A stretch of 64,000 nucleotides of DNA from Sphaerolaimus hirsutus (lineage: Eukaryota; Nematoda; Chromadorea; Monhysterida; Sphaerolaimidae): the NCBI GenBank assembly GCA_964036195.1, contig OZ038456.1, forward strand, positions 10,850,001-10,914,000, read 5' to 3'. Both the position numbers and the translations under genes were made by a program. The notes beneath the pieces were generated by a model. It saw only the letters and a list, made by a program, of their open reading frames with translations. It was not told the DNA's origin and did not search any database. This document shows, piece by piece, positions 4,081 to 52,168 of the stretch (position 1 is its first letter; each line of letters begins with the position of its first letter).

Positions 4081-7000
4081 GAAGTAAAATAAATGGCAAA
4101 TGTGTCAAAGCGCATAGTCATGCATACATAAATACGAATATGAACTTATTTGCATTTCACAATTGCAGCCGGTGACAAAGATGAAGACAAGAGGCGGCAA
4201 TCACCACGGAAGCATAAAGGAAGGCGAGCTTTGCAAACCGTAGATGAGGAGGCAGAGGAAATCGAGGAGGACAGTGAGGAAATCGAGGAGGACAATGAGG
4301 AAATCGAGGAGGACAATGACGAAATTGAGCCGAGAGAAAGGGTCAGTTATGATCACATTGAGGAGGACAGCAATGAACATGACAGTGACAAGGAGTTGGA
4401 TGATGACAAAAACGATGAAAACAAGGACGACAGTGACGGCGACAGTGACAGTGACAGTGACAGTGACAGTGATGGTGGCGGTGGCGGTGGTGGAACAGAG
4501 GCTAAAAAAGGACGCGATAATGATGACGATCGTGATGATGAGCCTGGAGCGCCTCATCCTCCTGCTGGTGCTCAGCCTCCTGCTGGTGGTGAGTCTCCTG
4601 CTGGTGGTGAGCCTCCTGCTGGTGGTGAGTCTCCTGCTGGTGGTGAGCCTCCTGCTGGTGGTGAGCCTCCTGCTGGTGGTGAGCCTCCTGCTGGTGGTGA
4701 GCCTCCTGCTGGTGGTGAGCCTCCTGCTGGTGGTGAGCCTCCTGCTGGTGGTGAGCCTCCTGCTGGTGGTGAGCCTCCTGCTGGTGGTGAGTCTCCTGCA
4801 CATGGAGATCGTGAGCCTCCTGCAAATGGTGAGTGACAATACCTATGATAGAGGGGGTAGGTAGGGTACTTCAATTTTATATTTGGTCTGCATCTATCTT
4901 TTGAATTACTTATCTTACGTTTCATGTAGTTAATTGTTGTGCATAAGTGTTCTGTTATTCTAAGATGCTATCAAAGCACACCCACATTACAAATATTAAT
5001 ATTTAGTTGCATTTATAAAATTGCAGGGTCCAACTCTTACGTGAAATAAGGTATACGTTAAATTGAAGCCACAACCAAAAAATGAAACATGACCTCACAA
5101 AGCCACACAGTATCAAATTTACACCAATCTCAGTGCACTGCAAAGTCGCAGTGCACTTGTATTTGCATGGAGTTCGTTTGTTGAAAATTTGACTTGTGCA
5201 CAAGTCACTTGTGTCGTGCACACGTTATTTTCACTCAAAGTTTACTAAATACCACTCCAGCGCACTCCTATTTGCATGGATGTATTTTTGACACGTTCTT
5301 ACCATCTTTGCTATGTTTCAAGTAAAAATGACTTCTTCGCAAGTATTATTCTTTGTAAAGTGTATCCATGCAAATAGGAAAACACTGTGCACGAGTGTTT
5401 TAGTATTATAATTGAATAAAACAAGTACATTTGTAATTTAAATGTGCAGATGCGAAAAGTGCAGGGAAGACGCCGAAAAAAACCGTTCAGCAGCAGACGA
5501 GCGACACTGCAGCTGCTGCGACTGTGAGTGGAAAGAAGGTGCGATCAGATCACAAGAAGCGACACGATCCACAGGAAGAAACTGGTAGGTGCTTTACGAT
5601 TGCACAAAATTTCACTCCTTATTACATTTACACCAATCTCAGTGCACTGCAAAGTCGCAGTGCACTTGTATTTGCATGGAGTTTGTTTGTTGAAAATTTG
5701 ACTTGTGCACAAGTCACTTGTGTTGTGCACACGTCATTTTCACTCAAAGTTTACTAAATATCAAAAAACATGTCAAAAATATTTCCATGGAAATAGGAAC
5801 GCCCTGCAAATTCAGTTTTCTTTAGTCCAATTGCTATGAGGTTTTTTATGAAATGAAACGAATTACATCAATGTCACTGCACTGCAAAGTCACAGTGCAC
5901 TTGTATTTTGCATGGATGCAGTTTATTGAAAATTTATCTTTATAAAATTTTCCACTGCAGATGCTGCGAGTGGTAGGTCAAAAAAGATATACATACAATT
6001 TAAGCCGCCACCAAAAAAGAAAACATCAACTCACAAAGGCACCGCTGGATTGTCTAGTGTTACTGTGGATCTGAGTTCACGAGGTGATCCTGATGTTCGT
6101 GACGGGGCAGAGACTGTCGAGCAAAATGTTCCTGCACCAACAAAACGACAACGAAATCCATCATCATCCTCTTCATCATCGGGTCAGTTTCTTCATACTG
6201 AATTTTCATTATTATTATGAACAGATTATTTTTAGGATGGTAATGTGCAGAAAGCAGGTAGTAAAAACCGCGAATAATTCCCCCTAGAATATACCCGCCT
6301 CTGAAATGATGTAATGTATGCTCAATGTACACAGTGTAAAACATGATGATCTTTAAGCAGAAAAGATATCGCAAAATTGTATTTTAATTGATGCTTAAAG
6401 ATTTCATTATACTTACATTTTCGCATTGATCCAATTTTATGCGGTGCTTTCATGGATTTTTGACAAAATTCGGGATTATACTTTTACATTTAGATTCAAA
6501 AGCAAACAACACTTGCCTATTTGTCTGCTTCAATTAAAACCTACTTTTGCACAAGTCAAATTTTCAATAAACTGCATTCATGCAAATAGAAGTGCACTGC
6601 AATTTGAAATTTGTAAAATTGGTGTAAAATGGTGTAAAATTAATAAGGATTGAAATTGAATGCAAGCGTTGATGTAAGTATACTGAAATGTTTACGTATC
6701 AATAAAAATACAATTTTGTGATGTCTCTCCTGCTTCAAGTCAAAATGACGTGTGCACTGCAGATGCGACTTGTGCACAAGTGATATTTGTATAATATAAT
6801 ATAGTATGTAAAATGAAATACTTATGTATCACTGTAAATACAAATTTACATTCCTTTTTTACATTTCAAGTCATTTCGTTTCATTTCAATTTCAAGACAT
6901 GTTGACAGTCGACTTCATTCGCACTGTACAAATGACATTGCACTATTAATTATATTTAGGCCCCTACCATTGCATACAAGTAATGAATCATTTCTTTATG

Positions 7001-9715
7001 CAGAGTCTACATATCAACCATTTATGAGAAGTATTCCAAAGGATCATAAAGCAGTTCTTTACCCTGATGAGAAATCCGCATTCTGGAGACCACAGAATGT
7101 AGATGATCAGCAACTGTTGTCTGAGTATGGAAGTGATATGCATTTATTGAAGAGACATATGAATGGAGACCTGGGAGATGTCATTGAGCTGCTGGTTTGT
7201 AACAATTTTGCATTTAAATTTAAAATAATGTTGTCCATGCGAAATGTACCTTTTCAAATTTATCAAGCTTCTATACCTCCACACAACGCTTCATTCATTC
7301 AACGCAATCTTCATTTCAGAACCGGGAACCACCTGACGCTGGCGGGCCGGTTTATACGCCTTCCGTGGCCGAGGGCTTGCTGTTTCTCAGGCGTAATAGC
7401 GGAAATATCCGCATACATCCGACTTTGATCAACATTGATGGGTTTTCCCCTATGCTGACTGATTTGATTGATGAACTGGCAGCGGTGCCAACAAACAGGG
7501 ATGTGAACAAAGTATTCCTGATGCATGATTTGGATTCAATGTACATCGTGCACCGATATTGTCATCCAGTAAATCCCACTGCTCATTCTTTTGTGAAAGT
7601 CTATGATCCGCTGCGAAAGGACGGCCACGACACAACTACAAATGCTGAATTGATGGTAGGTTTATGTAAATATTCTTTGTTTAAATAATATTTTTTGACA
7701 TTACCCCCAATCAGGGACACTTCACACTGGGAATTTACCATCAAATTATTACTTTATTCAACTTTCCGCTTATCTCAGTGCACTGCACAAGTCGCAGTGC
7801 AGTCCTGCGTGCATGGATGTGTATCGTAGAAAATATAACTAGTGCACAAGTCATATGAGTGGCGCACAAGTCTTTTTAACTTGAAACATAGAAAAATATA
7901 TCCATGCAAATAGGACTGCACTGCGACATGTGCAGTGCACTCAGACTTTTGAATATTTTTCAATACTAAATTTATGTTAAATATAAATACTTTTGACACA
8001 CTTTCCATGAGTTTAAATTTCAATTCAAGAACAAACAAAGCCCACGGACTTTTCCACCTTTTATTTACTCTTTATTATTAAATTTTTATATTTTTAAGTG
8101 ATACATAACTATTTCATTATACTTTCATGTACGCTTGCATTCAATTTCACTTTACATCAACTTTACACACGTCTCAGTGCACTGCACAAGTCGCAGTGCA
8201 GACCTATTTGCACGGATGTATATTGTGGGAAATTTGACTTGTGCACAAGTCGCATGTGTCGTGCACCAGTCACTTTGACTTGAAGCACAAGACATCACGC
8301 AAAAAGCTGTCAAAAAGATATCCATGCAGATAGGAGTGCATAAATCAACTTTACACACGTCTCAGTGCACTGCGCATGTCGCAGTGCAGTCCTATTTGCA
8401 CGGATGTATATTGTGGGAAATTTGACTTGTGCACAAGTCGCATGTGTCGTGCACAAGTGACACATAAACATAATAAAAAATATGTTTTGATTAGATAGAT
8501 ATCTCAAAATTACACGTACTGCAGTCTTCTATATGATTTTTTTACAATATAACACTAAATTCATCTAGCCTGTAACTTGATTGTGTTCATTCCGATGTGG
8601 TTGACGACACATGTTACTTGTGCACGAGTCATATTTCCTTTAATATATGTCCGTGTATATTATTATAGTACAAGTACAAGTGTATGGCTTTTTAGATGGT
8701 GTAATTCCAATTGCACGTAGCTTCAATTTAGGTTTTTTTAGCTATACTTAATTGTAAATTGATGTATTTGTATTATACACAGGCGGCAGCTGCTTGCACG
8801 AGCAATTTAGAAAAACCACAGGTTCAAATTGTATGGACACAGGGGAGGGGCAGTAGAAATTTGCCAGCCGATGCAAAATCCGATTACCTCACGATGCACC
8901 TGATTGATATCATGTCAGGAACGTACAAAACGTTAGCTCTTTTTATTTGTGTGTTAGCTTAAAAAATTATATTTCTGTTTCTGGAGATGTAAGTAATGGT
9001 ATAAATTAAATGCATCCAGAATTCTCTATTTACATCTTGAAATTACATACACGTCATTTATTTCAGGGATAAAATGTATGCACAACAGTGGAGCATGGAA
9101 ACAAATGAGTATGATCCGAGGAATGCACTGCGCATCTACGTTGAAGAGCACATCAAACCAAAGATGGATAACAAAGATTTTACAGAGTTCAGAGAGGAAG
9201 ATCGTTTGCCTGAAATTCCGCCGCTGAGATTTGCAGTACGGATGTTATGTATATTTGCAGATAGAAATGTCAAATATGCCACGTTTCAGCGGTTAGTATA
9301 CTGATTGGACTGTACACAATAAAAAATAAAAGTTACCATAATTTCATGAATGACATTTTAGTGAATTGCATTACATTAAAACACACCTGACAAGGTCCAC
9401 ACAAAAGTCAACGATCATGAGCATTTAGGTAATATAACTTTGTTTTACTTTCAGTAAATAAAACGCTGAACAAAAAATTTATATCAAAAATGTTTTAAAT
9501 CATCTGTATCCCTTTGGGTAATTCTCTGTAAGCATTTGCCTTATTTTCTGTATCCATTCATGTACTTAAACAACTTCCTCAGAGACTGCGTGTGTGGTTT
9601 CCCAAGCATAAATCATTTGAAAGCAATGAAAAAGGGTTGGCAAATAATTCAATGCAAGAATATGGACCGCTGTGTGCGACCTCTTTGTGGACAGCTAAAC
9701 ATGAAGTTGTCATAA
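1..9715 (+). CDS. Gene 1: tandem-exon repeat protein with unrecognised C-terminal domain (5' end outside window)
   Basis: Spliced gene read from GT-AG sites with matching phase. Exons: 45-codon repeat exons at 221-355, 730-864, 1239-1373, 1748-1882, 2257-2391, 2766-2900, 3275-3409 and 3784-3918; then 4169-4828, 5450-5584, 5961-6182, 7004-7194, 7320-7655, 8783-8922, 9067-9291 and 9583-9715 (TAA 9713-9715). Every junction up to 7004 is phase 1. The visible part is about 1,039 residues. The N-terminal part is Lys/Gln/Thr/Ala-rich repeats, then an acidic and Pro/Gly exon, then a basic segment with PPPKKKTSTHK and PTKRQRN, which looks like a nuclear localisation signal. From 7004 the protein looks globular, but I do not recognise a family. 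A faint resemblance to Ulp1-type cysteine peptidases (a VYDPL strand) lacks the catalytic cysteine. The last exon is the weakest, because its final codons lie in a dispersed repeat. AATAAA follows at 9807-9812. Confidence 0.62.
4169..4828 (+). CDS. Acidic and Pro/Gly-repeat exon of gene 1
   Basis: This single 660-nt exon follows an AATTGCAG acceptor and ends at a G|GTGAGT donor, phase 1 at both ends. It begins with a basic stretch (DKRRQSPRKHKGRR), then a seven-residue acidic repeat of EEIEEDN type, then an Asp/Ser run and a poly-Gly run, and ends in a hexapeptide repeat of GEPPAG or GESPAG type, encoded by an 18-bp minisatellite from about 4556 to 4800. Such low-complexity acidic tracts suit a disordered linker or chromatin-interacting region; that role is an inference. 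Open frames in the other five frames here are shadows of the repeat. Confidence 0.7.
4556..4800. repeat. 18-bp coding minisatellite (CCTCCTGCTGGTGGTGAG type)
   Basis: About thirteen head-to-tail 18-bp units inside the acidic exon of gene 1. The unit length keeps the frame, so copy number can change without breaking the protein. The only common variant is CCT to TCT, giving GESPAG instead of GEPPAG. Confidence 0.9.
5026..5105 (+). pseudogene. Decayed copy of the basic exon of gene 1
   Basis: After a TTGCAG acceptor this stretch aligns with the start of the intact exon at 5961-6182 (shared pattern AARATATACRTWAAATT, then the CCACCAAAAAAG and ACTCACAAAG blocks). It has in-frame TAA codons and no donor, so it is not usable. 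It lies between the acidic exon and the ninth repeat exon, as expected if a block holding a repeat exon and the basic exon was duplicated and one copy decayed. Confidence 0.7.
5102..5757 (+). repeat. Detached ninth copy of the 509-bp unit
   Basis: This is one full unit plus part of another, downstream of the acidic exon. It carries an intact phase 1-1 exon at 5450-5584 and an intron of the same type as units 1 and 4. Similarity stops abruptly after TTTACTAAATA at 5757. The array was therefore split by, or grew around, the acidic exon. Confidence 0.85.
6183..7003. other. Intron of gene 1 with decayed repeats
   Basis: The donor GGTCAGT at 6183 and the acceptor TTTCTTTATGCAG ending at 7003 bound this intron and give matching phase 1. 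It contains fragments of the GTGCAC repeat family (about 6541-6600 and 6730-6790) and a short stretch with GAATAATTCCCCC near 6272 that resembles the C-run element ends. I see no coding exon in it. Confidence 0.6.
7774..7945. repeat. GTGCAC foldback element, well-preserved copy
   Basis: Near-palindromic element of about 170 bp inside an intron of gene 1. It starts CTCAGTGCACTGCACAAGTC and ends GTGCAGTGCACTCAG. The inner arms hold GTGCATGGATG and, inverted, CATCCATGCAAAT-type sequence. The centre holds GTGCACAAGTC and an inverted AAGTC copy. No coding capacity; the short open frames through it are by-products of the palindrome. It is the typical member of the family that fills the left 31 kb. 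Confidence 0.8.
8166..8462. repeat. Two nested GTGCAC foldback copies
   Basis: One copy starts at about 8171 (TCTCAGTGCACTGCACAAGT) and runs to GATAGGAGTGCA near 8340. A second copy starts inside or next to it at about 8360 and ends near 8462. Both lie in the intron of gene 1 between 7656 and 8782. The same double arrangement recurs inverted at 12640-12960 and in part at 18320-18600, so the pair has moved or been copied as one block. Confidence 0.75.
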
Positions 9716-11929: not shown

Positions 11930-14900
11930 ATGGCTAAGCTTATCCAGTTCGCTATAATTGCAATGCTCCATTGCATTGAATTGCGTGCCGACGGGATAGT
12001 GGTGCAAGAGGCACCAGATCCCACATTCTCAATGCCTACCACAAATGACCTGCTGAACGAAAATGTGTGGATGGAGCTAGCAAACAGTTCGCTAGTTTTT
12101 CACCCACAAGAATTAGCCTACCGAACCAGTACTGTGTCCTGCATGGCTGTTGAGATTACTCTCACATGCGATATTATTGAGCAGACATATCTAGACAGCA
12201 TGTACTGGAAAAAGCTTCCACAGTGGCAAAGGGACATGTTGGAGGTTATTTATTTCTCAATATACTTCTTAAACTTTCACTCTTTTCGATATGTACCAGC
12301 TTGCAATTTTGATGCAAAACTTTTGAGCTTGCAAGCAACCTTTCGTAAAACAATTTACCTGTACAATTTTACCAATTTCTATACTGATATCATTATTGAA
12401 TCATTCTAATGCTTGTAATGAATAAAATGTTGCACAGCCTGAACTGGTCGAAATGGTCGAAAACTGCAACAACGAGATACGCGAATTGGTCAAAATGCAC
12501 CTGGAGCGCCGTCCGATCGTCAACCACATCAGACAGGACACAATCAAGTTACAGGTTATATGAATTTCGTGTTATATTGTAAAAAATCATATAGAAGACT
12601 GCAGTACGTGTAATTTTGAGATATCTATCTAATAAAAACATATTTTTTATCATGTTTATGTGTCACTTGTGCACGACACATGCGACTTGTGCACAAGTCA
12701 AATTTCCCACAATATACATCCGTGCAAATAGGACTGCACTGCGACATGCGCAGTGCACTGAGACGTGTGTAAAGTTGATATATGCACTCCTATCTGCATG
12801 GATATATTTTTGACAGCTTTTTGCGTGATGTCTACTGCTTCAAGTCAAAGTGACTGGTGCACGACACATGCGACTTGTGCACAAGTCAAATTTCCCACAA
12901 TATACATCCGTGCAAATAGGACTGCACTGCGACTTGTGCAGTGCACTGAGACGTGTGTAAATTGATGTGGAATGAAATTTAGTTAAATTAAAATCAAGCG
13001 TAGGCGTAATTAGAATTACCTAAATAGTTATTTATCACTTGAAATACATTGAATACTGAGTACTATTGAATTATTTTCTACGAGATGAAACGAAAGGACA
13101 CGAAACGTGTAAAAATCACGCACTTCCATCGATGCATGCATTGAATTTCATTCCGTATCAACCTCACACCTGCCTCAGTGCATTGGGCATGTTGCAGCGC
13201 ACTTCTATTTGCACGGTCATAGGGATTTTGACTAGTGCACAAGTCACATGTGACGTGCACAAGTTACATTTGTTGTGCACACGTTATTTTGACTTGAAGC
13301 GGACAAATAGGTAAACTTTGTTTACTTTTGAATCTAAATATAAGGGCACGGACGACTAGTGCAACCGCGCAAGCATCAACCACCCCTATGTATAGTCGCG
13401 CAACCCCCACTACTGTTCTGCCATGTATACTGCTGCAACTCCATGAAATATGAGCCGCAACCACTATGTGTAGTGCCGCAACCCCTGCCTATGTGTAATG
13501 CGACCACCCACCACATCTGTAGTTAGCTCTTCGCTGTGCAATTTTGACATGTAATGAATACTCTTGTAAATGACACCTCTTTCTTGGCATGTGAGACGTG
13601 TGACTTTATATATTTAATGTGGTACAGGTTGTAATTTGAATAAATAACTATGTAAAAAATGTCGTGTGCATGAACAAATAATATGGGAATAGTAAGGTGT
13701 GCTTATAATGTGCTAAAGATTGTATTTAGGTACATAAATGCGTGAATTTTGATTGACATTTTGCATGACATTTGACACATTTTGTGCAGGCTTTTTAAGC
13801 ACTAATACAGGGACATTCTGAACAATAAATAATGTGTGTGCACACGCTAAACTGTAAACTGTGTGCTGGTAAACTCATAAATCAGCTTTGAACGCATTTG
13901 AGTTTACTGGAATGGGTTATTCTGAATCCCCATCAACTGCAGTTGACAGACACCTCATTTTGGTGAACTCACATGCATTCAAAACCGACTTATGAGTTTA
14001 CCAGCACATGGTTTACAGTTTAGCGTGCGTGCCCCCAATACCGTGAAACATTTTGGAATGCCTGAATAAATATAAGCAACTTGAGAAAATCTAAATCTAA
14101 TCTTATCTAAATGGTGTATTTATATATTTACAAGTAGTCGGGTCGCGGTGCGAGTTGAAAAATGAATTTTTTAATATATTTTTCAACCTGGATCACGACC
14201 CGAAATTTTGGGTCGCTGTTTGGAACGCTATTTCATTGAATTAGGGTTCCAAACAGCGACCTGAAATTGCAAATATTGATTCCGGTTCCGGTTCCGGGTC
14301 GCGTGTCAGCTAATTACTTTGATATGCCGCTCATGTGAGTGCGGTCACTGGAGTCATTTTTATTTACTCACATTGTACGTCACTTGATACGCGACATCTG
14401 GTGCTGCGTGTGAGTTGCTCCTATGTGCGCCAGCATTAGTTATTTTTTTGTGTGGAATGCATCAACCTCATGTACAAACTATCAACCTGAGATGATTTTT
14501 TCCATGATGCGGGGTTGATGCATTCCATGCAGCCAATATAAGTGCAAACCAAAATGTAGATGCATCAAATTATCGCGCGAATTAACATCACATTGTCTAA
14601 GTGTATTCGCGATTTCATTTAAATATTTTATAGAAAATGTACTTTTGCGCAAGACATTTCTACTTAAACAATAGACAAATAATCTTTAAGGGGAACACTT
14701 ATTTATGTAGTTCAATGCACATGTTTACATGTAAGCTTGCACTAAATTTAACTTTGTATCAAATTCACACCCGTCTAACTGTGCTGTGCATGTCGCAGTG
14801 CACTTCTACTTGCACGGATGTATATTATGGGAATTATGATTCTTGCACGACACATGTGACGTGTGCACTAGTCAAATACCCTATGATATACATGCGTGCA

Positions 14901-17900
14901 AATCCAAGTGCGCTGCAACATGCGCAGTGCACTGGGACAGGTAAAACATTTTACAGGAGTAATTAAAGTATATATTTGTTCCAGGCACATTCTCAGATGG
15001 AGCATGCCGACGTATCGGCCACAGCAGAATCAGGTTTGATCGATGGGGTTCATGAAAATCCGAATATGCGTGAAAAACGAGCTGCATTTCTGGGTCCATT
15101 GATTTATGCTGGTTCTGCATTGCTAAAAGTGGGAAAAGTTGTCAAAGGTAGCGGTGCCTTCAATGCCCTTTGGAAAGGTGCACAAATTGGTCAGTGATAA
15201 ATAAGTTTTCTCTTGGATGCAATTTTATGAATAAGCCTTTTGCCTTTAAATGTGTCGAAATTTTTATAGCTGGTATGGCTGGAATGGGCGTTGAAACCTA
15301 CTTGCAACATAAGAAACTGACAAAAACCCAAGAGCAATTGGCGAGGTTAACCAAAAAGCAAAATGTTCAGGGGCAAACCATCAAGATGCTAGCTGTAGCA
15401 TCGGTGAAGAATAATGAGCTTATATCGCACAACACAAACTTTACAAGTCAGAATAGAAATGAGTTAGTCAAAATTTGTATTAACGACTCATGCCACATTT
15501 ATTCAAGAAAGCCGTAACTAATTTTCAGAATCGTAAATAACGAAAACAAGGCTGCTATGAAAGAAGCATTCACCAAATTCATAGCACTCGCTACGACTGG
15601 CATGCAATCACTTTCCTCACAAAACACACTGCACAATGCTATTTGTCCCAGTGTGTGCGTCCGCGAAACCGCAAGACGCATGCACAATATCTTCAATGGC
15701 GACACCTACTATGATCAGGTATTTACCTTGTGTATGAATTCGACTTGAAATTAGGTTTTCTACTAGTGCGCGACAACATGTTATCTATATTGTACTTATC
15801 GAAAAGCCTACAATGGTGTATATCATAATCCGTATAAAATAAAATGCTGAAAATATGCTTTTCCCATTCACTTTTATACATTGTTTACACTGCATGTGAT
15901 GTTGTAATTATTCTGTTCGAAAAACTGTATACTTCACTATGCTTTGAAGTGATAATGATTGTGTATTTGTTCCGATTCATGTTGAACAATGTCATTTCAT
16001 TTTTGTATGGCATTCTGTTTGATCAGTGGTCAATGAAATCCTCTGCATACAGGTACCCGGGGCTCTGGCACAGCTTGCTACTGCGCACTTGTCCAACTTC
16101 AATGCTGACACGTGCACCTTGTCCATAAACGTTTGTGCGCCGAATGTTCACTCTACTGACGACATCTGGATAACAGGCCACATCACGCATGCCGGTGCCT
16201 TCACAAATGATAGGAAGTGCTTCGCGAAGCCACATGTACGTGAATGCAGATTTTTCCACACAATAATAAATGTCGCACCCTACGTACTTGTCTGCATATA
16301 ACGTGTATATTCCATTGTGCAGGTTTTTCCGACTGTGGGCTTTCCTATGTCAGCGATAAAGCTGAAAGATGTCGTATTCCCGCAGCATTGCAGAAAAGTT
16401 GGAAATGCTGGTTTGTTGTTCATACTTTACATTTATTGGTGCACAACAAAATACTTTTATGCACAACACTTTTTTTTACAGAAAGTTGCACCGACTTTGC
16501 AACTCGAATGCCGCCCAGTGACACTATGTGTTCACCGAGAATGCCAGCGGAGTTCGCTAAATGCCCAATGGTCTGTTACTTGCACTGTTACATTGATCCA
16601 TCGTGATCTAAGTCCACAAAAATAGTTTGCTGTCAATTTAAACACACTTTTTCTCATGCTCGAATTGAAAATGACTTGTGCACAACACATGTGACTTGTG
16701 CGCGAGTCATATAAATCTGATGTAAATTTCGTGCTGTCGTGAACACAAATATTTCATCGTTTTACCTTAAGCGTTGGCTGGACATAACATGCATGTACAT
16801 TCGAAAACGTTTCCTGTAGGACCAAGTGAAGTGCCTCGCTTCGAATGAGCCTTTCATTCACGTGACTGCATCCGGCGATAGCTACATAATTGTGACCACA
16901 TGTGACAGGTGACTTAATTAAATATTATTTGTACTGACTTATAATTTGACAGTGATAACGAGTAATTTGTTCCAGCTACCGATTGATCAACCGCACGGAA
17001 GTCCTGCAGCAGACTGTTCACCAGATTGATGCTCCGGCCGTGTTTCAGCTGCACGTGCCAGATGGCTTCATTGCTGAAATTTGCCACGGTCTACACAGAC
17101 GACATCTACCGCATCTGGGGCAAGGTACTCCATTACCAAGACACCGGTTCATTATCAAAAAGTGGAACGTGTCTACGTATGATTTGGAATCGGCACAAAA
17201 ATGTTTGTTGAAATTCAATTTTCTTACCAAATTTATAAATATGCTGGACGCTTCACTGCTTGGAATGTAAATACATAGGCATTGTAAAAAACTTGTTTCC
17301 TTAGAAATTGATTAATTCCCCTTTGTATCAATTCAAAAACAATTTTTTTTGTAATTGTCATGCTTGTAGTCAAAACGACTATTGCATAACACTTGTGACT
17401 TGTACACAAGTAAGATTCCACATTGTAATTATCCATAAATACCTTGCAGATATTGCTGAGGCAGTAGCTAGCGTGAAAGTTGCTCGGCAAACACAAATGG
17501 ATATCGAACAGCAGATTGAGCAGATTAACGCTGTTAGTTTATCTTAATACTTGGTCTAGGATAAGAAAGATTACCTATGTATTTTTATCTATACAAGGCC
17601 TAATATTTTTATTATCACTGTAAAGTGACTAATTTTATATCAAGAAGAAACCCGTGCAAAAGCTAAAACATCTTTGGTTTGAAATACTACATTTTGTTGT
17701 TTTTTTTTGTTGTGGTTGTTGTGCACCACCGATTTTTATAGTTAAAATGCAAGACATTCCTATTTCACGGTCATGGGCACTTCTCATGTGCTTACATTAT
17801 TGTATCATTCATATTATTATGTGTATAAAAGTGAAAACACTGACAAAAACAGGAAACGGAAGCTCCTGCGGCGTATGACACCACTTGGGTATGGTGCCTT

Positions 17901-18014
17901 TCCATTTCGATTGGCATCATTGTCATTTTTTGCATCGGTTCCATCTCCTTCATGAAGTTCTACTGTTGCGTGCCCAGGAGCATCGAAAGCAGCTTCGAAA
18001 TGGTCGATATGTGA
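11930..18014 (+). CDS. Gene 2: class I fusion-like membrane glycoprotein, 12 exons
   Basis: Exons 11930-12244, 12438-12554, 14985-15189, 15270-15462, 15529-15718, 16053-16235, 16323-16410, 16482-16570, 16820-16908, 16976-17124, 17450-17532 and 17853-18014. All phases agree; total 1,863 nt, about 620 residues. A hydrophobic signal peptide opens exon 1. Exon 3 has REKR (15069-15080), a furin-type site, followed at once by a hydrophobic Ala/Gly/Leu stretch like a fusion peptide (15081-15149). Exon 4 is a heptad-like helix. Exons 5-10 are Cys-rich. Exon 11 is a second short helix. Exon 12 has one membrane segment and a tail of about 17 residues with a CC pair. This order matches class I fusion proteins (paramyxovirus F, baculovirus F, retroviral Env); I cannot assign it to one family. 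The introns indicate a host-resident gene, perhaps a captured envelope. A cellular adhesion protein of similar layout is the alternative. Confidence 0.72.
13841..14030. repeat. Small foldback element in gene 2 intron
   Basis: CACACGCTAAACTGTAAACTG with GTGCTGGTAAACTCATAA at the left is mirrored by TTATGAGTTTACCAGCAC and GTTTACAGTTTAGCGTG at the right. The arms are about 45 bp with a loop of about 100 bp. It looks like a MITE; the ends recall the TAGTTTAC ends of the Harbinger element at 37194-41027, but the match is too short to call them related. Confidence 0.65.
14772..14940. repeat. GTGCAC foldback copy
   Basis: A copy with ACTGTGCTGTGCATGTCGCAG at the left and GCTGCAACATGCGCAGTGCAC at the right, about 165 bp, just upstream of the exon with the cleavage site of gene 2. 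The preceding 200 bp (14570-14770) recur at about 26640-26810 next to another copy, so the flanking DNA was duplicated with it. Confidence 0.7.
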
Positions 18015-18970
18015 ATGTTGGATTTATTTTATTTTTTTCTGTATTATTTCTAACATTGTTTTCCCGCCTTATTCACCTTTTTATTATGCTGTAACTCAAC
18101 CGTTGTAAATCAATATTTAACTACAATTGACACACTTGACGTACCTGATGCATTCCTAAAAACACATGTAACTTGTTCACAAGTCATATTTTTTATTAAT
18201 CAGACCCATGTCCAAAATTGTAATTTCACTGCACAAGTCGCAGTGCAGTCCAATCTGGAGGAATGTATTTTTGACACGTTTTTCCGATGTCTTTTCTGCT
18301 TCAAGAAAAAACAACTTGTGCACGACACATGTGACTTGTGCACAAGTCAAATTTCCCACAATATACATCCGTGCAAATAGGACTGCACTGCGACATGCGC
18401 AGTGACCTGAGACGTGTGTAAAGTTGATATATGCACTCCTATCTGCATGGATATATTTTTGACAGCTTTTTGCGTGATGTCTTGTGCTTCAAGTCAAAGT
18501 GACTAGTGCACGACACATGCGACTTGTGCACAAGTGAAATTTCCTACAATATACATACATGCGTGCAAATCGAAGTGCGCTGCAACATGAAAAAACGTGA
18601 AAATGAATAAAAAAGGGGAACAGTAATTAGGCTTTGTTTGCTTTTAAATTGAAATCTTTACACTTCATAGGTCGCAAAGCAGTTCTACTTGCACATATGT
18701 ATTTTATAGAAAATTTGACCCTTGCAAAAGTCTCATGTGTTGTGCACAAGTCATTTTGACTTGAAACGGAAAAAGACATTGCAAAATTGTGTTTTAATTG
18801 ATACGTAAACATTTAATTCTACTTACATTTAAGCATTGATTAAATTTCATTCCGTGTTTTCATGCATATTTGAAAAAATTGAGGATTATACTTACATTTA
18901 GATTCAAAAGCAAACAAAATATACACAAAAGTCTGTTTCAGGTCAAAATGACTTTTGCACAACACCTGTG
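18015..18970. repeat. GTGCAC foldback cluster downstream of gene 2
   Basis: Copies lie at about 18225-18415, 18425-18590 and, degenerate, 18660-18780. They share the ATACATCCGTGCAAATAGGAC and ATCTGCATGGATATATTTT blocks with copies at 8300-8400, 12700-12800 and 26430-26560. I see no gene between the stop of gene 2 and 20688. Confidence 0.7.
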
Positions 18971-18974
18971 ACTT

Positions 18975-20500
18975 GCAGCTAAACATGAAGTTGTCATAAA
19001 TCATTGCCTTTGGCGGCGCCTTTTGTGAAATCGATCAAAAGAATTTCCGCTGTGGTTTATTTCACTGTGCTGTGCTGTACATTTAACATTTAATTAGATG
19101 ACGTAAACTTGCACCCCACAGCTTTCGCATATTTGTCTCCTTCAAGTCAAAGCGACTTGTGCACGACGCATGTGACTTGTGCACTAGTCAAATTTTTATT
19201 ACTTAGACACATGCCAAAAATTGTTATTACAGTGCTACCAAATTAATTAAAAGCACTTAAAATGGACGCCTACCTCAGTGCAATGCACAAGTCGGAGCGC
19301 ACTTCTATTTGCATGGATGAATTTTTGACATGTTTTTCCGATGTTTTTTGTGCTTCAAGTCCAAACGACTTTTGCACGTGTCATATTTCCTAAAATATGC
19401 ATCCATGCAAATAGAAGTGCGCCACAACATGCGCAGTGCACTGGGACAACTATATCGATTTAAACACACTTTTTCTCATGCTCGAATTGAAAATGACTTG
19501 TGCAGAACACATGTGACTTGTGCGCGAGTCATATAAATCTGATGTAAATTTCGTGCTGTCGTGAACACAAATATTTCATTGTTTTACATTCGATGGAGAA
19601 ATGAAGCAACTTTTGCATGTCATAAACCGATAACTTTACGATCCTACAGTAAATCAAATTCAGGGTCGTAAAAGTATCGCATGTCAATAACAAATTTGTA
19701 CCCGCGCAGCAATGACCAGTGGCGATATGTACTTGCAGCTAAACATGAAGTTGTCATAAATCATTGCCTTTGGCGGCGCCTTTTGTGAAATCGATCAAAA
19801 GAATTTCCTCGTCCCATCAATAACCAAACACGAGAAATATTTGCTGAAATTATAAAATACTTGGCAATTGAATGTCATTGACACATACTTAGGATTTTTT
19901 CTTGTGAGTATGGATTATGCAAATCGAGAAGTATTTGCATACGGCTCAACAGCGGGTCAGATAACCCCTTTATGCGCATCCGTTGAGCATAGGATTATCG
20001 AATTTCTTTCATGTTACGCTAGAAGGGGTCAAACAATGCGACAATTATGCATTTCATTCTTTCCGACCGGTAAAACAGAACGTATTTTGTTAGGATAGTG
20101 CACAACAGTAAGCAAGTATTTGTGTATGCACACAATGAATTATTCCCCAGTCAAAATAAAGGAATCAGAGTTCAAAAATGCATCAGAGATGCATCCATGC
20201 AAATGGCTGTGCACTGCTACATGCGCAGTGCACTGAGACAGGTATAAAATTTATTGCGCATGTCGCAGTGCACTCCCATTTGTATGGATACACTGTACAA
20301 ACAATATGACCTGTGCACAAAACTTGCGACTTGTGCACGAGTATAATGCACTTACATATACTTTGACATAACATTTCGGCATGAGTGCACAGAAACATTG
20401 CAGTACATTGAGACAGTTACAAAATTTAATAAGAAGAGAAATTTTTCAAAAGATAAATATAAGTAAATACACTGACATAAAGATTCGTATCACTGTAAAT
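18975..20500. repeat. Composite repeat block (R2 copy b and R1 copy b)
   Basis: The stretch 19080-19725 repeats 10900-11520 and 25000-25560; 19735-20178 repeats 9676-10140; 20100-20500 repeats about 24640-25000. The same junction sequence (CTTTGGCGGCGCCTTTTGTG) occurs in several orders, so these blocks have been shuffled rather than simply copied once. No coding evidence. Confidence 0.7.
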
Positions 20501-20688
20501 ATAAATGTAAATATCAATGTATATTGATTGACATAAAGTTTTGTCATGTGTGTAATTTGTCAACAACTAGACTAGTGCACAAGTCACGTGTGTCGTGCAC
20601 TAGTCAGTTTTACTTGAAGCAGAAGACATCAATTTTCATTTATATCAAACAATTTAAATCACGACACGACACCTTTGACAAAGCGCAT

Positions 20689-21870
20689 TCAAGTTCGTCG
20701 GCGCTGTGCCATGAGCCGGTCGAGCTGCTCGCTGGTGGGCACTAACTGCTCGACGACGATCGTCGTATTCTGCGAAAAAAATATTTGTAACAGTATGTTT
20801 GATGTATACCATATACGTGAATATGTACACCGCAATACGTGCAGCAAGCTGATACATGACATGACTTCTTGAAAATCTCACCCACCAAACCGATTTTTTT
20901 AAAAATTGTAAATGAGTACTGGGCACTGGCCCAGCCCCGCAAAGGTAAAAAAATAGGAAACACTTGCACATACCATATCGCGCACAGCATCCGGCGCCGT
21001 TGGCAACGTTGCCGGCGGTGGCGCCGCGTGTTTCTCTGCCTGTAAGCACTTAAAAATTTAAACACTTTTTCGCAGAAGGTTTGCCATCGTTAGGTGCTAG
21101 CAGTAGTATAATGGTATAATAGCAAGTAGTATATAGTATTATATGGTAGTATATAGTACATTGTACATTGTAAATATATAGCTTATATATAGTATCTAGT
21201 ATATAGAGGGGGGTAGAATGAGGGGGGTCTTTTTTTCCCCAGAATATTTTACCTGGGGGGTAGATTGAGGGGGGGGGGGGGGTTGAATGAGGGGGGGGTT
21301 GAATTAGGGGGGGTTCATCGAGGAAAGTCGGTAGCATCTTTTTTCTTCAATTTCAGTTTCAAAAACAGCCATTCTATTTCACATGGCCTTTTGTAAAGGT
21401 CTGTTATTCAATTGGAACAAATAGGGTAAATATTTTATGTATGCTAGATAACCGCTCGATACATAAGTTATGGACCATTGGTTTAACGTTATGGACCATA
21501 ACTTCAATTTTGCGTATTTCATTCTCGTGCTATGCATGCTCGTTAAAATAACATTAGTATGGAATCAGTGTAAATGAATAAAACATTATTCATTATTTAT
21601 TTTTGATAGAACAAGTTATGAAGTAACATAGCACTTTATAAACGCACCTGACAAAATACTACCTCATTGACATATTGCACCGGGTGTTCTTTCAAAATGT
21701 GGGCAAACATTTTCAAATCGTCTTGGGGTTTTTTGTTGTCCAATATTTGCAAATCACTTTCATTATCATCATTGAGATTCGAATCTGAGTCCCCAGTTGT
21801 ATACTTGCAAAGTGGACACTTGTGGTTGAATTTTTTTGGATCAGTCAAAGTCTGTTGATACATTTGTTTG
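20689..21870 (-). CDS. Gene 3: last three exons of a Cys/His zinc-finger-like protein (5' end not found)
   Basis: Minus-strand exons 21870-21663, 21039-20974 and 20769-20689 (stop at 20691-20689). The second and third have AG acceptors and the first two have GTAGTA or GTATGT donors; the junctions are phase 0, and the first visible exon enters in phase 2. The first exon has CPLCKY and, after an acidic Asp/Asn/Ser insert of some 35 residues, FAHILKEH, a CX2C...HX4H arrangement like a C2H2 finger but with a far longer spacer than usual. The middle exon is Ala/Pro-rich. The last is a short helix-like segment ending MAQRRRT. Upstream exons should lie above 21870; I could not identify them. A zinc-binding role is inferred from the Cys/His spacing only. 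Confidence 0.55.
21196..21320. repeat. G-run region
   Basis: Runs of G separated by TAGAATGA, TAGATTGA, TTGAATGA or TTGAATTA within an intron of gene 3. They resemble the G/C-run ends of the TA-flanked elements at 27297 and 56099, but no matching terminal inverted repeat is visible. TATA/GTA-rich sequence precedes it (21100-21200). Confidence 0.6.
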
Positions 21871-22263
21871 CTGCACACTGAAATGTTGTTGAAGGAGTTT
21901 TCATAAACACAAATGCAAAAATAATAGAACAAATAATTATTGTGAGAAAGAGTATACACTACATACATACTTTAAAAACACACAAAGTTGTCAAATGCAA
22001 AATGATGGGTAAACTCTAAATTCACTTTTTTACTTTGACATCACATAAAATATTTAAACAACTTTGACATGATTGCTAAGAAACTGGCATTTAGAGTACC
22101 TATGTATTAATTATGTATTATTCTATATTTGTATTTTAAAGTGATACATAACTATTTCATTATACTTTCATATACGCTTGCATTCAATTTCACTTTATAT
22201 CAACTTTACACACGTATCAGTGCACTGCACAAGTCGCAGTGCAGTCCTATTTGCACGGATGTA

Positions 22264-22835
22264 CAGGGGTGGGCATTTTCAGTTACCGCTGGAAAAACGC
22301 GATAGCTTGAGCTACGGTTGAGCTATCGCAGTGAAATTTTAGCACAATAGAGTAGACTCCATAGGACACCTATTCTGAAGTTTGCAACCCAAACGGGCAC
22401 ATTTTGGGTGAGTTGTGGAACACACAGTTTTTAGTGTAATTTTGTGACTCGGCGTCACGATAGGATAAATCAAGGGTGGCATTTGAGGGGGGGGGGGTCA
22501 CTGGCTTTGGCGTCGTCCCAATCTGTCGTACATTGGCCGATTTTGATGCCCTTTGAGTAAATATGTTGGGGTTTGGGGTCGGGGCTACGACCAAATTTTT
22601 TTTTTTTTTCTTCGAACAGTACCCCAGTCCCGAGATAAAGGGGGTTAAGACACAAAATTAAACAAAAAAACTGTGTGTTCCATAACCCACACAAAATGTG
22701 GCCGTTTTGGTTGCAAACTTCAGAATAGGTGTCCTATGGAGTCTACTCGATTGTGTTACAATTTCACTGTGATAGCTCAACCATAGCTCAAGCTATCGCG
22801 TTTTTTCCAGCGGTAACTGAAAATGCCCACCCCTG
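22264..22835. mobile_element. TA-flanked inverted-repeat element inside a GTGCAC foldback
   Basis: The element starts CAGGGGTGGGCATTTTC and ends with its reverse complement, with TA on both sides (22262-22263 and 22836-22837). Removing it and one TA restores the GGATGTATATTGTGGG core of the GTGCAC foldback it entered. TA duplication and the end sequence fit Tc1/mariner-type elements without a transposase. The terminal inverted repeats continue well inward (the GCGATAGCTTGAGCTA and CCTATTCTGAAGTTTGCAA blocks are also mirrored). Its middle (22480-22640) is related to 35398-35573. Confidence 0.82.
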
Positions 22836-23218
22836 TATATTGTGGGAAATTTGACTTGTGCACAAGTTGCATGTGTCGTGCACCAGTTACTTTGACTTGA
22901 AAAATATAAAAATATATGCACGCATATAGGACAGCTCTTCGACTTGCAATACAATAAATGCATACAAACGAGGGTGCAGAGTTACTTGTGCAATGTACTA
23001 AACTGACCACAAAAGGCCCAACCTGATTAGGTATCTCGTCTACAGCGCGATGAAGCTCCCCCTTTTTTGGTGCAAACGAATTTCCGTATGTGCTGTTAAG
23101 TAAATAAAACAGTTATTTGCCAGTGAAATCGAATGTACGTAGCAGATAAGAAATCGCAAAAATGTTTAACAAGCATTCAACAAAATTATTTATTTGTGTC
23201 CATATCACTTTACACACG

Positions 23219-23416
23219 TCTCAGTGTACTGCGCAAGTCGCAGTGCAGTCCTATTTGCATGGATGTATATTGTGGGAAATTTGACTTGTGCACAAGTCGC
23301 ATGTGTCGTGCACCAGTTACTTTGACTTGAAGCACAAGACATCACGCAAAAAGCTGTCAAAAATATATCCATGCAGATAGGAGTGCACTCAGGCTTGTGC
23401 AGTGCACTGAGACGGG
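23219..23416. repeat. GTGCAC foldback copy
   Basis: Starts TCTCAGTGTACTGCGCAAGT and ends GTGCAGTGCACTGAGACGGG, with both octamer-bearing arms present and an extra block (AGACATCACGCAAAAAGCTG) shared with the copies at 8290, 12825 and 26460. No gene is seen from 22836 to 27183. Confidence 0.7.
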
Positions 23417-25690
23417 TGTACATTTGATACGGGTGAATTTTAGTGCATGCACTGACGTATGTAAATGAAGCAGTTATGTATCAATGTAAATACAAAATTC
23501 ACATTGTTTTTTTTTACATTTCAAATCAATGCGTTACATGTCATCTAAAACAATCTCATGTTATCTAAAGTATTTAAATATCTAGCTCATTCTAGCTATC
23601 GGAATAGCTTTAAGGATGTCATGTTTCAAATTCTCAAAATCCATCGAAATTTTCATGTTAGTTATGTTCTGTTGAATACACTTTTGACACACGTTCAATG
23701 AGTTTAAATTTTGTGCTTTCATGCATATTTGAAAAAAATTGAGGATTACACTTACATTTAGATTCAAAAGCAAACAAAATATAGACAAATGTCTGTTTCA
23801 AGTCAAAATAACTTGTGCACAACACCTGTGACTTGTGCACTATTCGTATTTCCTATAGTATAAATAGATCCGTGCAAGTAAAAGTGCGCTGCAAAATGCG
23901 CAGTGCACTGGGAGAGGTGTAAATTTGATACTTTGTAGAACGAAAACTTAAAATTATATTTTGTAATGATAATCATGTTATAAAATAATTTGTTGCGACA
24001 TTTGTTGTACTAAAGCAACACGCGTTGTATAAAAGCGACATCCGTTGTAAAAAACCATCTTTTGTCCTAATGAGCACCTTTGTTGTATAAAAACTACTGT
24101 TGTACTAATGCACTTTTGTCCTAATGATGCACACTCCTTTGTCAGTGCACTGCACAAGTCGCAGCGCAGTCCTGCGTGCATGAATGTGCACCATACACAA
24201 TGTGACTAGTGCACCAGTCATATGACTTGCGCACAAGTTTTTTTAAATTGAAACTAACAAAAATATATCCATGCAGATAGGAGTGCAATGCGACATTACC
24301 GCAAATAACCAATAAACGTATCATTAAAATGATAGCAAACCTGAAAATACAGCTGCAGAAAGCACAGGATCCTGTTGCCCTCGTTTGTCGATTACCACGA
24401 AATGGGTAGTGAATTGAGTAACAATTTTTTTCCTGTGAAATGAGTGAATTTGTGCAGACTACATTTGTGTAAATTAATGTAGACGAAAAGGAAACGAATG
24501 TACGCAAAATATGAAAAACTCACAATTGTAACTACTTATTGAACATTAACATATTTACATTGACCCATGGTGCGCATACACTGTACAAATATTCAGAAAA
24601 TGGAATGTCATAAAGATATTCATTCGCAACACTATACTATGCACACAATGAATTATTCCCCAGTCAAAATAAAGGAATCAGAGTTCAAAAATGCATCAGA
24701 GATGCATCCATGCAAATGGCTGTGCACTGCTACATGCGCAGTGCACTGAGACAGGTATAAAATTTATTGCGCATGTCGCAGCGCACTCCCATTTGTATGG
24801 ATACACTGTACAAACAATATGACTTGTGCACAAAACTTGCGACTTGTGCACGAGTATAATGCACTTACATATACTTTGACATAACATTTTGGCATGAGTG
24901 CACAGAAACATTGCAGTACATTGAGACAGTTACAAAATTTAATAAGAAGAGAAATTTTTTCAAAAGATAAATATAAGTAAATACACTGACATAAAGATTC
25001 GGGCACGAGACATGCAACTTGTGCACTAGTCAAATTTTTATTAATTAGACACATGCCAAAAATTATTATTACAGTGCTACCAAATTATTTAAAAGCGCTT
25101 AAAATGGACACCTACCTCAGTGCAATGCACAAGTCGGAGCGCACTTCTATTCGCATGGATGTATTTTTGACATGTTTTTCCGATGTTTTTTTGTGCTTCA
25201 AGTCCAAACGACTTTTGCACGTGTCATATTTCCTAAAATATGCATCCATGCAAATAGAAGTGCGCTGCAACATGCGCAGTGCACTGGGACAACTATATCG
25301 ATTTAAACACACTTTTTCTCATGCTCGAATTGAAAATAACTTGTGCAGAACACATGTGACTTGTGCGCGAGTCATATAAATCTGATGTAAATTTCGTGCT
25401 GTCGTGAACACAAATATTTCATTGTTTTACATTCGATGGAGAAATGAAGCAACTTTTGCATGTCATAAACCGATAACTTTACGATCCTACAGTAAATCAA
25501 ATTCAGGGTCGTAAAAGTATAGCATGTCAATAACAAATTTGGACCCGCGCAGCAATGACCAGACGCGATATGTACTTGCAGCTAAATATGAAGTTGTCAT
25601 AAATCATTGCCTTTGGCGGCGCTTTTTGTGAAATCGATCAAAAGAATTTCCGCTGTGGTTTATTACACTGTGCTGTGCTGTGCATTGTGG
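23417..25690. repeat. Mixed repeat region with R1 and R2 third copies
   Basis: Foldback fragments at 23800-23920 and 24140-24290, R1 tail with GTGCAC copy at 24640-24960, and R2 copy c at about 25000-25690. A possible isolated exon (24336-24410, ending in AATGGGTAGTG) was considered but has no partner. The GCGACATTTGTTGTACTAAAG-like stretch at 23990-24125 is a short degenerate repeat. Confidence 0.55.
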
Positions 25691-25858
25691 GAATTTCCTT
25701 TATTACACAAGTGCGATTGTAATGGCGGCATTGTCTTTGATATTTTATATAAGTTGCACTCGTAAGAAATTCGGATCATTTGTTTGATCATTCCACTGTC
25801 ACTTGATCTTTTTCAAAGTGACGAATGCACGCTGGCCATGCGGGTTACCTACAATAAA

Positions 25859-26165
25859 AATCAGTCATAATTGCGATTGCTCAAATGCTTAATCTCTTGC
25901 CTGTGGTGCAGTAAAAGATGATTATCTCTGCATGACATTCCAGAATTTCTCCTCATTATGGAATCAGTCATATTTGTGATTGCTGAAATGCCTTAATCTT
26001 TTGCCTGTGGTGCAGTAAAAGATGATTATCTCTGCATGACATTACAGAATTTCTCCTCATTATGGAATCAGTCATAATTGCGATTGCTACAATGCCTTAA
26101 TCTCTTGCCTGTGGTGCAGTAAAAGATGATTATCTCTGCATGACATTCCAGTATTTCATTTTATT
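25859..26165 (+). repeat. 103-bp tandem repeat, three units
   Basis: Units begin at about 25859, 25962 and 26065 with AATCAGTCATA and contain GCCTGTGGTGCAGTAAAAG. The third unit runs into 26105-26280, a segment that recurs at 26967-27148 just upstream of gene 4, ending in the same TTTTTTTCAGCTACCATTTG. Confidence 0.85.
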
Positions 26166-26397
26166 TGATGGATCATGGACATTATTTTTTTGTAGCCTTA
26201 GGCAACCACTTTGAGTTTTTCCTGACATAAAAGGAACGTTCATTTTTTTCAGCTACCATTTGCGATCAAATTGTATATGAATTGATTTGAAATGTAAAAA
26301 AAGCAATGTGAATTTTGTATTTACATTGATACATAACTGCTTCATTTACATACGTCAGTGCATGCACTAAAATTCACCCGTATCAAATGTACACCCG

Positions 26398-26940
26398 TCT
26401 CAGTGCACTGCACAAGCCTGAGTGCACTCCTATCTGCATGGATATATTTTTGACAGCTTTTTGCGTGATGTCTACTGCTTCAAGTCAAAGTGACTGGTGC
26501 ACGACACATGCGACTTGTGCACAAATCAAATTTCCCACAATATACATCCGTGCAAATAGGACTGCACTGCGACATGCGCAATGCACTGACAAAGGTGGTT
26601 GCACTAGATTCCCATGCAAATTAATCTTACATTTGTCTCAGTGTACTCGCGATTGCATTTATATGCATTATAGAATATGTACTTATGCGCAATTTTTTTC
26701 TACTTAAACAATAGACAAATTATCTTTGAAGGGAATAGTTATGTAGGTCAATGCACATGTTTACACTTACGTTTGCACTAAATTTCACTTTGTATCAAAT
26801 TTACACCTGTCCCAGTGCACTGCGCATGTTGCAGCGCACTTCTACTTGCATGGATCTATTTATACTATAGGAAATACGAATAGTGCACAAGTCACAGGTG
26901 TTGTGCACAAGTCATTTTGACTTGAAACAGACATTTGTGT
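26398..26940. repeat. Two GTGCAC foldback copies
   Basis: The first (26398-26590) starts CTCAGTGCACTGCACAAGC and ends ATGCGCAATGCACTGAC. The second lies at about 26808-26935. The DNA between them (26640-26810) duplicates 14570-14770 in gene 2 intron 2. Confidence 0.65.
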
Positions 26941-27183
26941 ATATTTTGTTTGCTTTTGAATCTAAATGTAATCTTTTGCCTGTGGTGCAGTAAAAGATGA
27001 TTATCTCTGCATGACATTCCAGTATTTCATTTTATTTGATGGATCATGGACATTATTTTTTTGTAGCCTTAGGCAACCACTTTGAGTTTTTCCTGACATA
27101 AAAGGAACGTTCATTTTTTTCAGCTACCATTTGCGATCAAATTGTATATATTTTTTCGACGCACGACAGCTTCGACAAAAACG

Positions 27184-29085: not shown

Positions 29086-29188
29086 ATACCTCGTTCCTCG
29101 TTATTTTGCCCATTATTTTGACCGTATATTTTGCGCAGTTGGTGAAAATGACTTATATTGACATTAGCAGAAATCAGAAATTGACATC

Positions 29189-29330
29189 AGAAAAATTAGC
29201 TGGGCATTAGTCACCTCCAACGAGGTGTCCGATCTGAGCGACGGGGACGCTCCCAGCGTGTCAGATCATGTACAGATTGCATGGACGTGTTTCTGTTATT
29301 GATCTCCTCGGCTTCAAGTCAAAGCGATTG
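29189..29330 (+). repeat. Coding-like segment, copy 1 of a duplicated block
   Basis: The block from AGAAAAATTAGCTGGGC to GGCTTCAAGTCAAAGCG recurs at 29894-30031 with almost no change. One frame reads TSNEVSDLSDGDAPSVSDH, flanked by possible AG acceptors and a GTACAG donor, like a small acidic exon. It could be an alternative cytoplasmic-tail exon of gene 4, which ends 104 bp earlier, or a decayed exon. The part 29310-29460 also recurs at 30225-30380, so three blocks here are shuffled. Confidence 0.45.
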
Positions 29331-29893
29331 ATGTTGATTATGGAAAATTGACTTCTGCACTAGTAACATGTGTTGTGCACAAGTCTCTTTGACTTGAAAT
29401 ATGAAAAATGTTTTCAAAAAGGTGTAAGACGTTCACCAATGTCCTACTAATTAATTCTCTAATGTTTGTTAATTTTATGTCTATTTTATTACTTATATTG
29501 ACAAATAAAATTAAAAATTGTTTAAATAATTACTCCCTGATTCTAACAACAAAGATTGAAATTGTATAAAATTAGTATATTTAAACACGCCATATATTCA
29601 AGTACTGATAAATTTATTTATGTATATAAATATGATAATTTATTTATTTATTTATTTATTCATACGCCAGCTTTGAACTGAGGTAAACAATAAATTCCAT
29701 TTAAATAGTTCAATATAAGCATAATAGTAACATGAACATGTCAATGAGAACATGCTGCAGTGCACTCATATTTGCACGGATTTATATTATAGGAAATACA
29801 ACTAGTGCACAAGTATCATGTGTCGTGCACAAGTTGTTTTGACTTGAAGCAGACAAATAATGTAGTAATACTTGATAGTCATTGATGGAATGA

Positions 29894-30380
29894 AGAAAAA
29901 TTAGCTGGGCATTAGTCACCTCCAACGAGGTGTCCGATATGAGCGACGGGGACGCTCCCAGCGTGTCAGATCATGTACAGATTGCATGGACGTGTTTCTG
30001 TTATTGATCTCCTCGGCTTCAAGTCAAAGCGACTTGTGCACGACACACGTGACTTGTGCACTAGTCTAATTGTTGACAAAATGATTTAATTTGATTGATT
30101 TGAACAAAAACGTATCACCTCTGCTTCAAGTCATGGCGACTTGTGCACGACACACGTGACTTGTGCACTAGTCTAATTGTTGACAAAATGATTTAATTTG
30201 ATTGATTCGAACAAAAACGTATCACCTCTGCTTCAAGTCAAAGCGATTGATGTTGATTATGGAAAATTGACTTCTGCACTAGTAACATGTGTTGTGCACA
30301 AGTCTCTTTGACTTGAAATATGAAAAATGTTTTCAAAAAGGTGTAAAACGTTCACCAATGTCCTACTAATTAATTCTCTA
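29894..30380 (+). repeat. Second copy of the coding-like segment and flanks
   Basis: The acidic frame is kept, with one Leu-to-Met change, while the neighbouring non-coding parts are rearranged: the TGACAAAATGATTTAATTTG block occurs twice in tandem (30070-30090 and 30180-30200). From 30380 to 31010 I see no gene, only AT-rich sequence and one 92-codon frame without recognisable features. Confidence 0.55.
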
Positions 30381-31016: not shown

Positions 31017-31215
31017 ACTTGTGCACAAGTGCATTTTGCTTTGTTTATACCACAAAATAATAGCTCCACAAGTCATGTTTACTTGTGCACAAGTATATTT
31101 TGCTTTGTATACGAAACAAAAAAGCTGTCTCCGCAAATGCAGTTACTTGTGCACAAGTGATATTCTTACAAGTGTAATTGTGCGCGAGCAAAAGTCCATT
31201 TACTTGTGCACAAGT
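31017..31215. repeat. Four perfect ACTTGTGCACAAGT palindromes at regular spacing
   Basis: The 14-bp perfect palindrome starts at 31017, 31081, 31145 and 31202 (spacings 64, 64, 57). The first two are followed by the same CATTTTGCTTTGT or TATTTTGCTTTGT. Unlike the foldback copies, these lack the octamer arms. They stand at the right limit of the GTGCAC family; I found none beyond 31.3 kb. Confidence 0.85.
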
Positions 31216-49371: not shown

Positions 49372-49397
49372 ACCGTCTTGTGAACCATAGACGGGTT

Positions 49398-52166: not shown

Positions 52167-52168
52167 GC

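Follow-up and report, generated by a model that had tools for sequence, protein, structure and literature searches.

A predicted class-I-like membrane glycoprotein gene carried by a 62-kb, probably Mutator-type transposable element of the nematode Sphaerolaimus hirsutus

The 64,000 nucleotides of Sphaerolaimus hirsutus DNA analysed here, referred to in their full length as the window (C9:10850001-10914000 of the 348-Mb genome), harbour a gene of twelve exons for a predicted membrane glycoprotein whose parts are arranged as in class I membrane-fusion proteins. This gene lies inside a transposable element of 62,348 bp (C9:10819195-10881542) and is, wherever it ultimately came from, a constituent of this mobile element. 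To the reading that it is the cargo of a giant cut-and-paste transposon, probably of the Mutator type, and provides a class-I-like fusogen for spread between cells or hosts, we assign a probability of about 0.5.

A perfect 9-bp target site duplication (TSD), CAGTTTTTC, abuts both ends of the element, directly to the left of C9:10819195 and directly to the right of window position 31542, and matches to the window on several contigs end at one and the same base, 31542 +/-2. The left end, designated type B, has 91 of its last 100 bases in common with the right end (type A), and both ends are part of long inverted arms; taken together, these features correspond to the terminal inverted repeats (TIRs) of Mutator-like transposons. 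The matching blocks of the two arms are 97.8-99.6% alike and total about 10.3 kb, to which the terminal 91 bases are added, with unmatched stretches intervening; towards its outer end the left arm has ~1.5 kb without a match apart from the tip, C9:10819311-10820000 lying outside the comparison. The shared stop of the matches, the inverted arms and the matching 9-bp duplication identify window position 31542 as the end of a transposable element. A perfect 9-bp TSD is present in four of seven end pairs, namely in the 62-kb copy and in three shorter derivatives of about 0.7, 2.8 and 13 kb on C9, C4 and C14, and its length fits the 8-11 bp of Mutator-like elements. Each of these four pairs combines one end A with one end B (in the derivatives, A is TATCAGACC or TATTAGACC and B is GTGCGCCCC or GTGCGCCCT). 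There is no TSD at the C3 pair (A + B), the C722 pair (A + A) and the C16:2969k/C16:3077k pair (A + A). The family to which the element belongs is clearly mobile. Its 0.7-kb derivative (C9:24394520-24395330, L036) is internally deleted, keeps its two ends, is flanked by a perfect 9-bp TSD and resembles a miniature inverted-repeat transposable element.

A 186-base probe from exon 3 yields five full matches in the genome, four of them identical (that of the window included) and one 98%, in addition to a 34-base fragment on C234. The other full copies are located on C664, C16, C11 and C571, where kilobases around the gene match the window in blocks which are mostly 99-99.9% alike. All five are embedded in DNA that matches the element and includes at least one of its ends, the four outside the window showing one recognisable end each in fitting orientation. 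All twelve exons are present in each of these four copies, in which the only frame break seen is a 1-base insertion in exon 3 of C571; this comparison excluded the 20 bases at the start of exon 3 in C664, C16 and C571, and one split codon stayed unclassified. The element family has recently multiplied. Substitutions amount to 17 in 7392 exon sites versus 87 in 22507 sites of the surroundings, shared changes being counted repeatedly, and at best this hints at constraint.

A palindrome of 14 bp, ACTTGTGCACAAGT, ties the gene to the element as a second, independent mark. With up to two mismatches allowed, the window contains 64 instances, every one of them in 1-31542 and none in 31543-64000; base-shuffled element sequence contains a mean of 0.3 (20 shuffles). 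Loci L019, L018 and L017 contain 25, 22 and 19 instances, and at five loci bearing an element end no palindrome is found beyond this end. Six of seven loci taken as lying outside the element are devoid of it, while five instances occur in L021 (C664:46500-56499), a locus which adjoins an element copy and whose status as outside is unsettled. None of the 64 palindromes starts within the twelve exons; they are located in introns and between genes and may therefore be recognised and bound by a protein that either the element or the host encodes. Some of them are paired at a distance of 20 or 188 bases.

The exons of the glycoprotein gene (Table 1), whose splice sites were read from the sequence, extend over window positions 11930-18014 and add up to 1863 bases, corresponding to 620 codons and a stop. 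Each of the eleven introns starts with GT and terminates with AG, and the exon phases are mutually consistent. When the frame was tested exon by exon, with intron-split codons excluded, a single stop was encountered in 616 codons, which is the terminal one; the two shifted frames of the same exons contain 30 and 32 stops in 604 codons each. As a structure in the sequence the twelve-exon gene is thereby confirmed, and splicing in vivo would be expected to follow this model, which was derived from the DNA alone.

Table 1. Features of the window that concern the element and its genes
Feature	Window position	Strand	Content or basis
Element, right half	1-31542	+	inverted ends, 9-bp TSD, near-identical copies; within the window the palindrome is confined to it
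Target site duplication CAGTTTTTC	31543-31551	.	the 9 bases recur immediately to the left of C9:10819195
Right terminal inverted arm, ~13.2 kb	18308-31542	.	inverted match within C9:10819195-10832690
Terminal 100 bp, end A, ...GTAGAACATGTATCAGACC	31443-31542	+	at least 40 matches in the genome
Exon 1	11930-12244	+	signal-peptide-like start and N-terminal part
Exon 2	12438-12554	+	splice-site reading
Exon 3	14985-15189	+	REKR site, then hydrophobic Ala/Gly-rich stretch
Exon 4	15270-15462	+	long helix, resembling heptad repeat 1 (HR1-like)
Exon 5	15529-15718	+	splice sites, frame test
Exon 6	16053-16235	+	Cys-rich; splice sites, frame test
Exon 7	16323-16410	+	splice sites
Exon 8	16482-16570	+	Cys-rich; splice sites, frame test
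Exon 9	16820-16908	+	splice sites
Exon 10	16976-17124	+	splice sites
Exon 11	17450-17532	+	second helix, HR2-like
Exon 12	17853-18014	+	membrane span, short tail, stop
Overlapping open frames	6838-7688	+	probable exons of the other gene in the element; like an Ovarian Tumour (OTU) protease by eye only
Tandem 509-bp unit, each repeating an open frame of ~106 amino acids	1-4075	+	match spacing, repeated open reading frames

In the predicted protein a signal-like start is followed, in this order, by the tetrapeptide REKR, a hydrophobic stretch, a long predicted helix, twelve cysteines, a second helix, a membrane span and a tail. Hydropathy (Kyte-Doolittle, 19 residues) peaks at 1.66 in exon 1, as in a signal peptide, and at 2.49 in exon 12, as in a membrane span; judged by this measure only, the protein possesses the signal peptide and the single C-terminal span of a class I fusion protein. 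REKR, encoded by exon 3, directly precedes the Ala/Gly-rich hydrophobic sequence AAFLGPLIYAGSALL and is a candidate cleavage site. A basic site placed directly before a hydrophobic stretch characterises the layout of class I fusion glycoproteins of the F/Env type and of errantiviral or gypsy Env. With these the predicted protein shares both the order of parts and the abutment of the two motifs, but there is no sequence match between them in exon-wise searches and the gene described here has eleven introns; in contrast to errantiviral and gypsy Env it resides in a DNA element, not in a retroelement. The twelve cysteines are encoded by whole codons of exons 5-10. Exon 4, predicted on its own and without an alignment, folds into one helix comprising residues 3-62 (60 residues; five models, mean pLDDT, i.e. 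predicted local distance difference test score, 90.8 in the best and 62.5 in the worst). Exon 11 encodes a second amphipathic stretch whose heptad score is reached by 46 of 2000 shuffles, the sole standout among the seven exons scored with this crude measure. The gene appears to encode a class-I-like membrane glycoprotein which would be cleaved, would assemble as a trimer and may be active in membrane fusion. The original prediction had claimed twelve exons in one frame with consistent phases, which the splice sites and the frame test corroborate, and a class-I-like order of parts, which holds as far as hydropathy, the position of REKR, the cysteine count and the exon 4 helix reach.

Homology searches were run one exon at a time, with exons 8 and 9 in none of them and exons 2, 7, 11 and 12 covered by the Pfam scan only. 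In the ten exons scanned, Pfam yields sub-threshold matches only (exon 1, E 0.18; exon 12, E 0.027 and 0.1). For exons 1, 3, 4, 5, 6 and 10 no match is obtained in NCBIfam, and PHROGs provides nothing above threshold (exon 1, E 0.072; exon 4, E 0.0055, 0.01 and 0.028). Compared by sequence with the PDB, exons 1, 4 and 6 have no match at E<=10, while exon 3 weakly matches designed helical proteins (E 0.0094 and above) and exon 5 gives weak matches at E 0.38 and above. In IMG/VR, where the search of exons 1, 3 and 6 reaches close relatives only, no relative was confirmed, and in a large protein set none scored among the candidates for exon 3 (94), exon 1 (21) and a putative transposase exon of the element (54). 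Rfam at its gathering threshold and ARAGORN, both applied to the window, report no match. Kinship may be missed by single-exon queries, and most of the collections seem poor in animal proteins.

Assignment of the element to the Mutator superfamily is likely, not proven. An open frame at L017:5999-6436 weakly matches the IS256 transposase model of NCBIfam (E 6.1e-4, 18.9 bits), IS256 being a prokaryotic relative of Mutator; this exon has no Pfam match at cut-off, and 19 other frames (9 + 10) have no match at E<=1. Mutator-type transposases bear the signatures D, D and C-x-x-H, which the motifs IDTTY, ITDQG and CWKH, found by eye in this order, would fit. With Mutator-like elements of the Phantom, MuDR-6_HM and Rehavkus groups the element has in common the 9-bp TSD, inverted ends, a putative, weakly IS256-like transposase exon and extra genes. 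According to the accessible parts of a survey of Mutator-like elements, their TSDs measure 8-11 bp, their TIRs 14-500 bp, and one cnidarian group carries an Ovarian Tumour domain (PMC6446971). Compared with the TIRs given there, the arms of the present 62-kb element, which span about 13 kb, are exceptionally long, and the element differs further in carrying an intron-split fusogen-like gene. Relative to the glycoprotein gene, the transposase-like segment has the reverse orientation in the C16, C11 and C571 copies (L024, L030 and L032, compared with L017/L018). The inverted segments adjoin arrays of a 643-bp repeat, as if the centre of the element could flip.

If the glycoprotein does serve the spread of the element, the host would transcribe and splice its gene, the precursor would enter the secretory path and a furin-like protease would cleave it after REKR. 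The hydrophobic stretch, now N-terminal, might then together with the two helices drive membrane merger, by which the element could pass into adjacent cells, the germ line or a different host. In errantiviruses, envelope genes serve spread between cells or hosts. A role of the glycoprotein in transmission is suggested by analogy with these envelopes and with nematode Mavericks, which, as the accessible part of a meeting report has it, carry a putative fusogen proposed to promote their spread (PMC10680173).

A number of observations weigh against this reading. Exon-wise searches, with exons 8 and 9 outside their scope, reveal neither a credible relative nor homology to a fusion protein, in agreement with the original prediction that no described family would be recognised. 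That prediction had also named a heptad-like first helix; a helix is indeed predicted in exon 4, but its heptad pattern is at chance level, as 765 of 2000 shuffles reach the score, and the signal of exon 11 is weak after seven tests. Of the structure prediction which had been proposed as a check, the single long helix of exon 4 is favourable, whereas the low-confidence model of exon 3 alone (mean pLDDT 68.6) contains a helix, residues 26-53, which passes through REKR. As to the transposase, the 18.9 bits of the IS256 match compare with a curated cut-off of 150; the same frame matches Pfam (17.9 bits, E 0.0032) and a PHROG (E 0.0027) similarly weakly, and surely spuriously, and no transposase model is matched by the frames that contain IDTTY and ITDQG. 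Finally, 13 of 16 classified exon substitutions alter a residue, and differences in exons and surroundings are too few for selection on the protein to be discerned among such similar copies.

Two other kinds of giant mobile DNA invite comparison. Nematode Maverick/Polinton elements, as far as the partial account cited above goes, are likewise DNA elements with a fusogen-like gene; the present element, in contrast, has a 9-bp TSD and a weakly Mutator-like transposase, and no DNA polymerase, integrase or capsid match was found in the frames scanned, which do not cover every exon. Teratorn, a fusion of a piggyBac transposon and a herpesvirus, is, in the accessible text on it, also a giant cut-and-paste DNA transposon with virus-like capacity (PMC10175614), but its transposase belongs to another superfamily, it measures 180 kb versus 62 kb, and no herpesvirus family was matched here in the frames scanned.

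The foremost alternative, which we regard as unlikely but by no means negligible, is that the transposon has passively captured a gene of the host, introns included, whose product is a cleaved type-I membrane protein of an ordinary sort, with a role in adhesion or recognition, for instance, and none in fusion. Eleven well-formed introns are what is seen in cellular genes, exon-wise searches found no viral relative, and Mutator elements are known gene catchers, although the Pack-MULEs among them, so far as the accessible text describes them, are mostly 1-2 kb in size and contain gene fragments (PMC6431247). At the DNA level, however, at which a diverged host parent might escape notice, no full copy is seen outside the element, five of five full exon 3 copies being situated in element DNA, and the succession of REKR, hydrophobic stretch, helix, cysteines, helix and span would be unusual for an adhesion protein.

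Decidedly improbable in our view is an origin from a large DNA virus which fused with a transposon, in the manner of Teratorn, and has since been reduced, with the glycoprotein as an entry protein that has gained introns. The giant size of the element, the glycoprotein and the many short palindromes spread across the element would be in line with such an origin. Some large insect DNA viruses possess repeated palindromes, which those of the element recall. Yet no viral replication or capsid family was matched in the frames scanned, and the genes are rich in exons, with few long open frames. As to the original prediction, it offered an envelope gene taken over by the host, as syncytins were, or a cellular protein of convergent plan. 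An open, intron-split gene with a class-I-like layout is compatible with a domesticated envelope, but both options presupposed a fixed host locus, which is contradicted by the TSD-flanked 62-kb transposon and by the other copies in element DNA. The locus is that of a mobile element with several near-identical copies, and no separate host locus is seen at the DNA level. As the gene has not left its mobile element, domestication lacks support and is, in our estimation, very improbable; as a domesticated host gene the locus was discarded, since copies in element DNA and the TSD reveal that the gene moves with the element.

To our knowledge, a route of virus-like spread has so far been described for retroelements, Mavericks and one herpesvirus-transposon fusion. 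We propose, tentatively and with more doubt than confidence, that a Mutator-type transposon which has acquired a class I fusogen constitutes a virus-like agent that travels between cells or hosts in the form of transposon DNA. A search of the open literature, judged by titles and the openings of abstracts, revealed no Mutator-type element with a fusogen-like gene, and in the accessible main text of the Mutator-like survey the word "envelope" occurs zero times (PMC6446971). The passage of DNA transposons from one animal species to another has long posed a question, and, if the proposal is true, a giant element of this class equipped with a fusion-type glycoprotein of its own would be a direct and testable vehicle for it. 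It would also add a new family of fusogens and an envelope-like gene which, despite its many introns, is still mobile.

The other gene of the element is rich in exons and seemingly located mostly to the left of the window, from about L018 7000 to window position 8000; the overlapping open frames assigned to it in Table 1 match no family in profile scans. Within the 509-bp tandem repeat an exon may have been multiplied, and window 4144-4842 contains an open frame with a long PPAGGE-type repeat of 18 bases. Outside the element, pieces of a BEL/Pao-type retrotransposon (DUF1759, RVT_1 and Peptidase_A17) are present on the - strand at window 48355-53972, and a transposase piece, which we take to be of the Harbinger type, is found at window 38246-40053 with a DDE_Tnp_4 match at 39658-40053.
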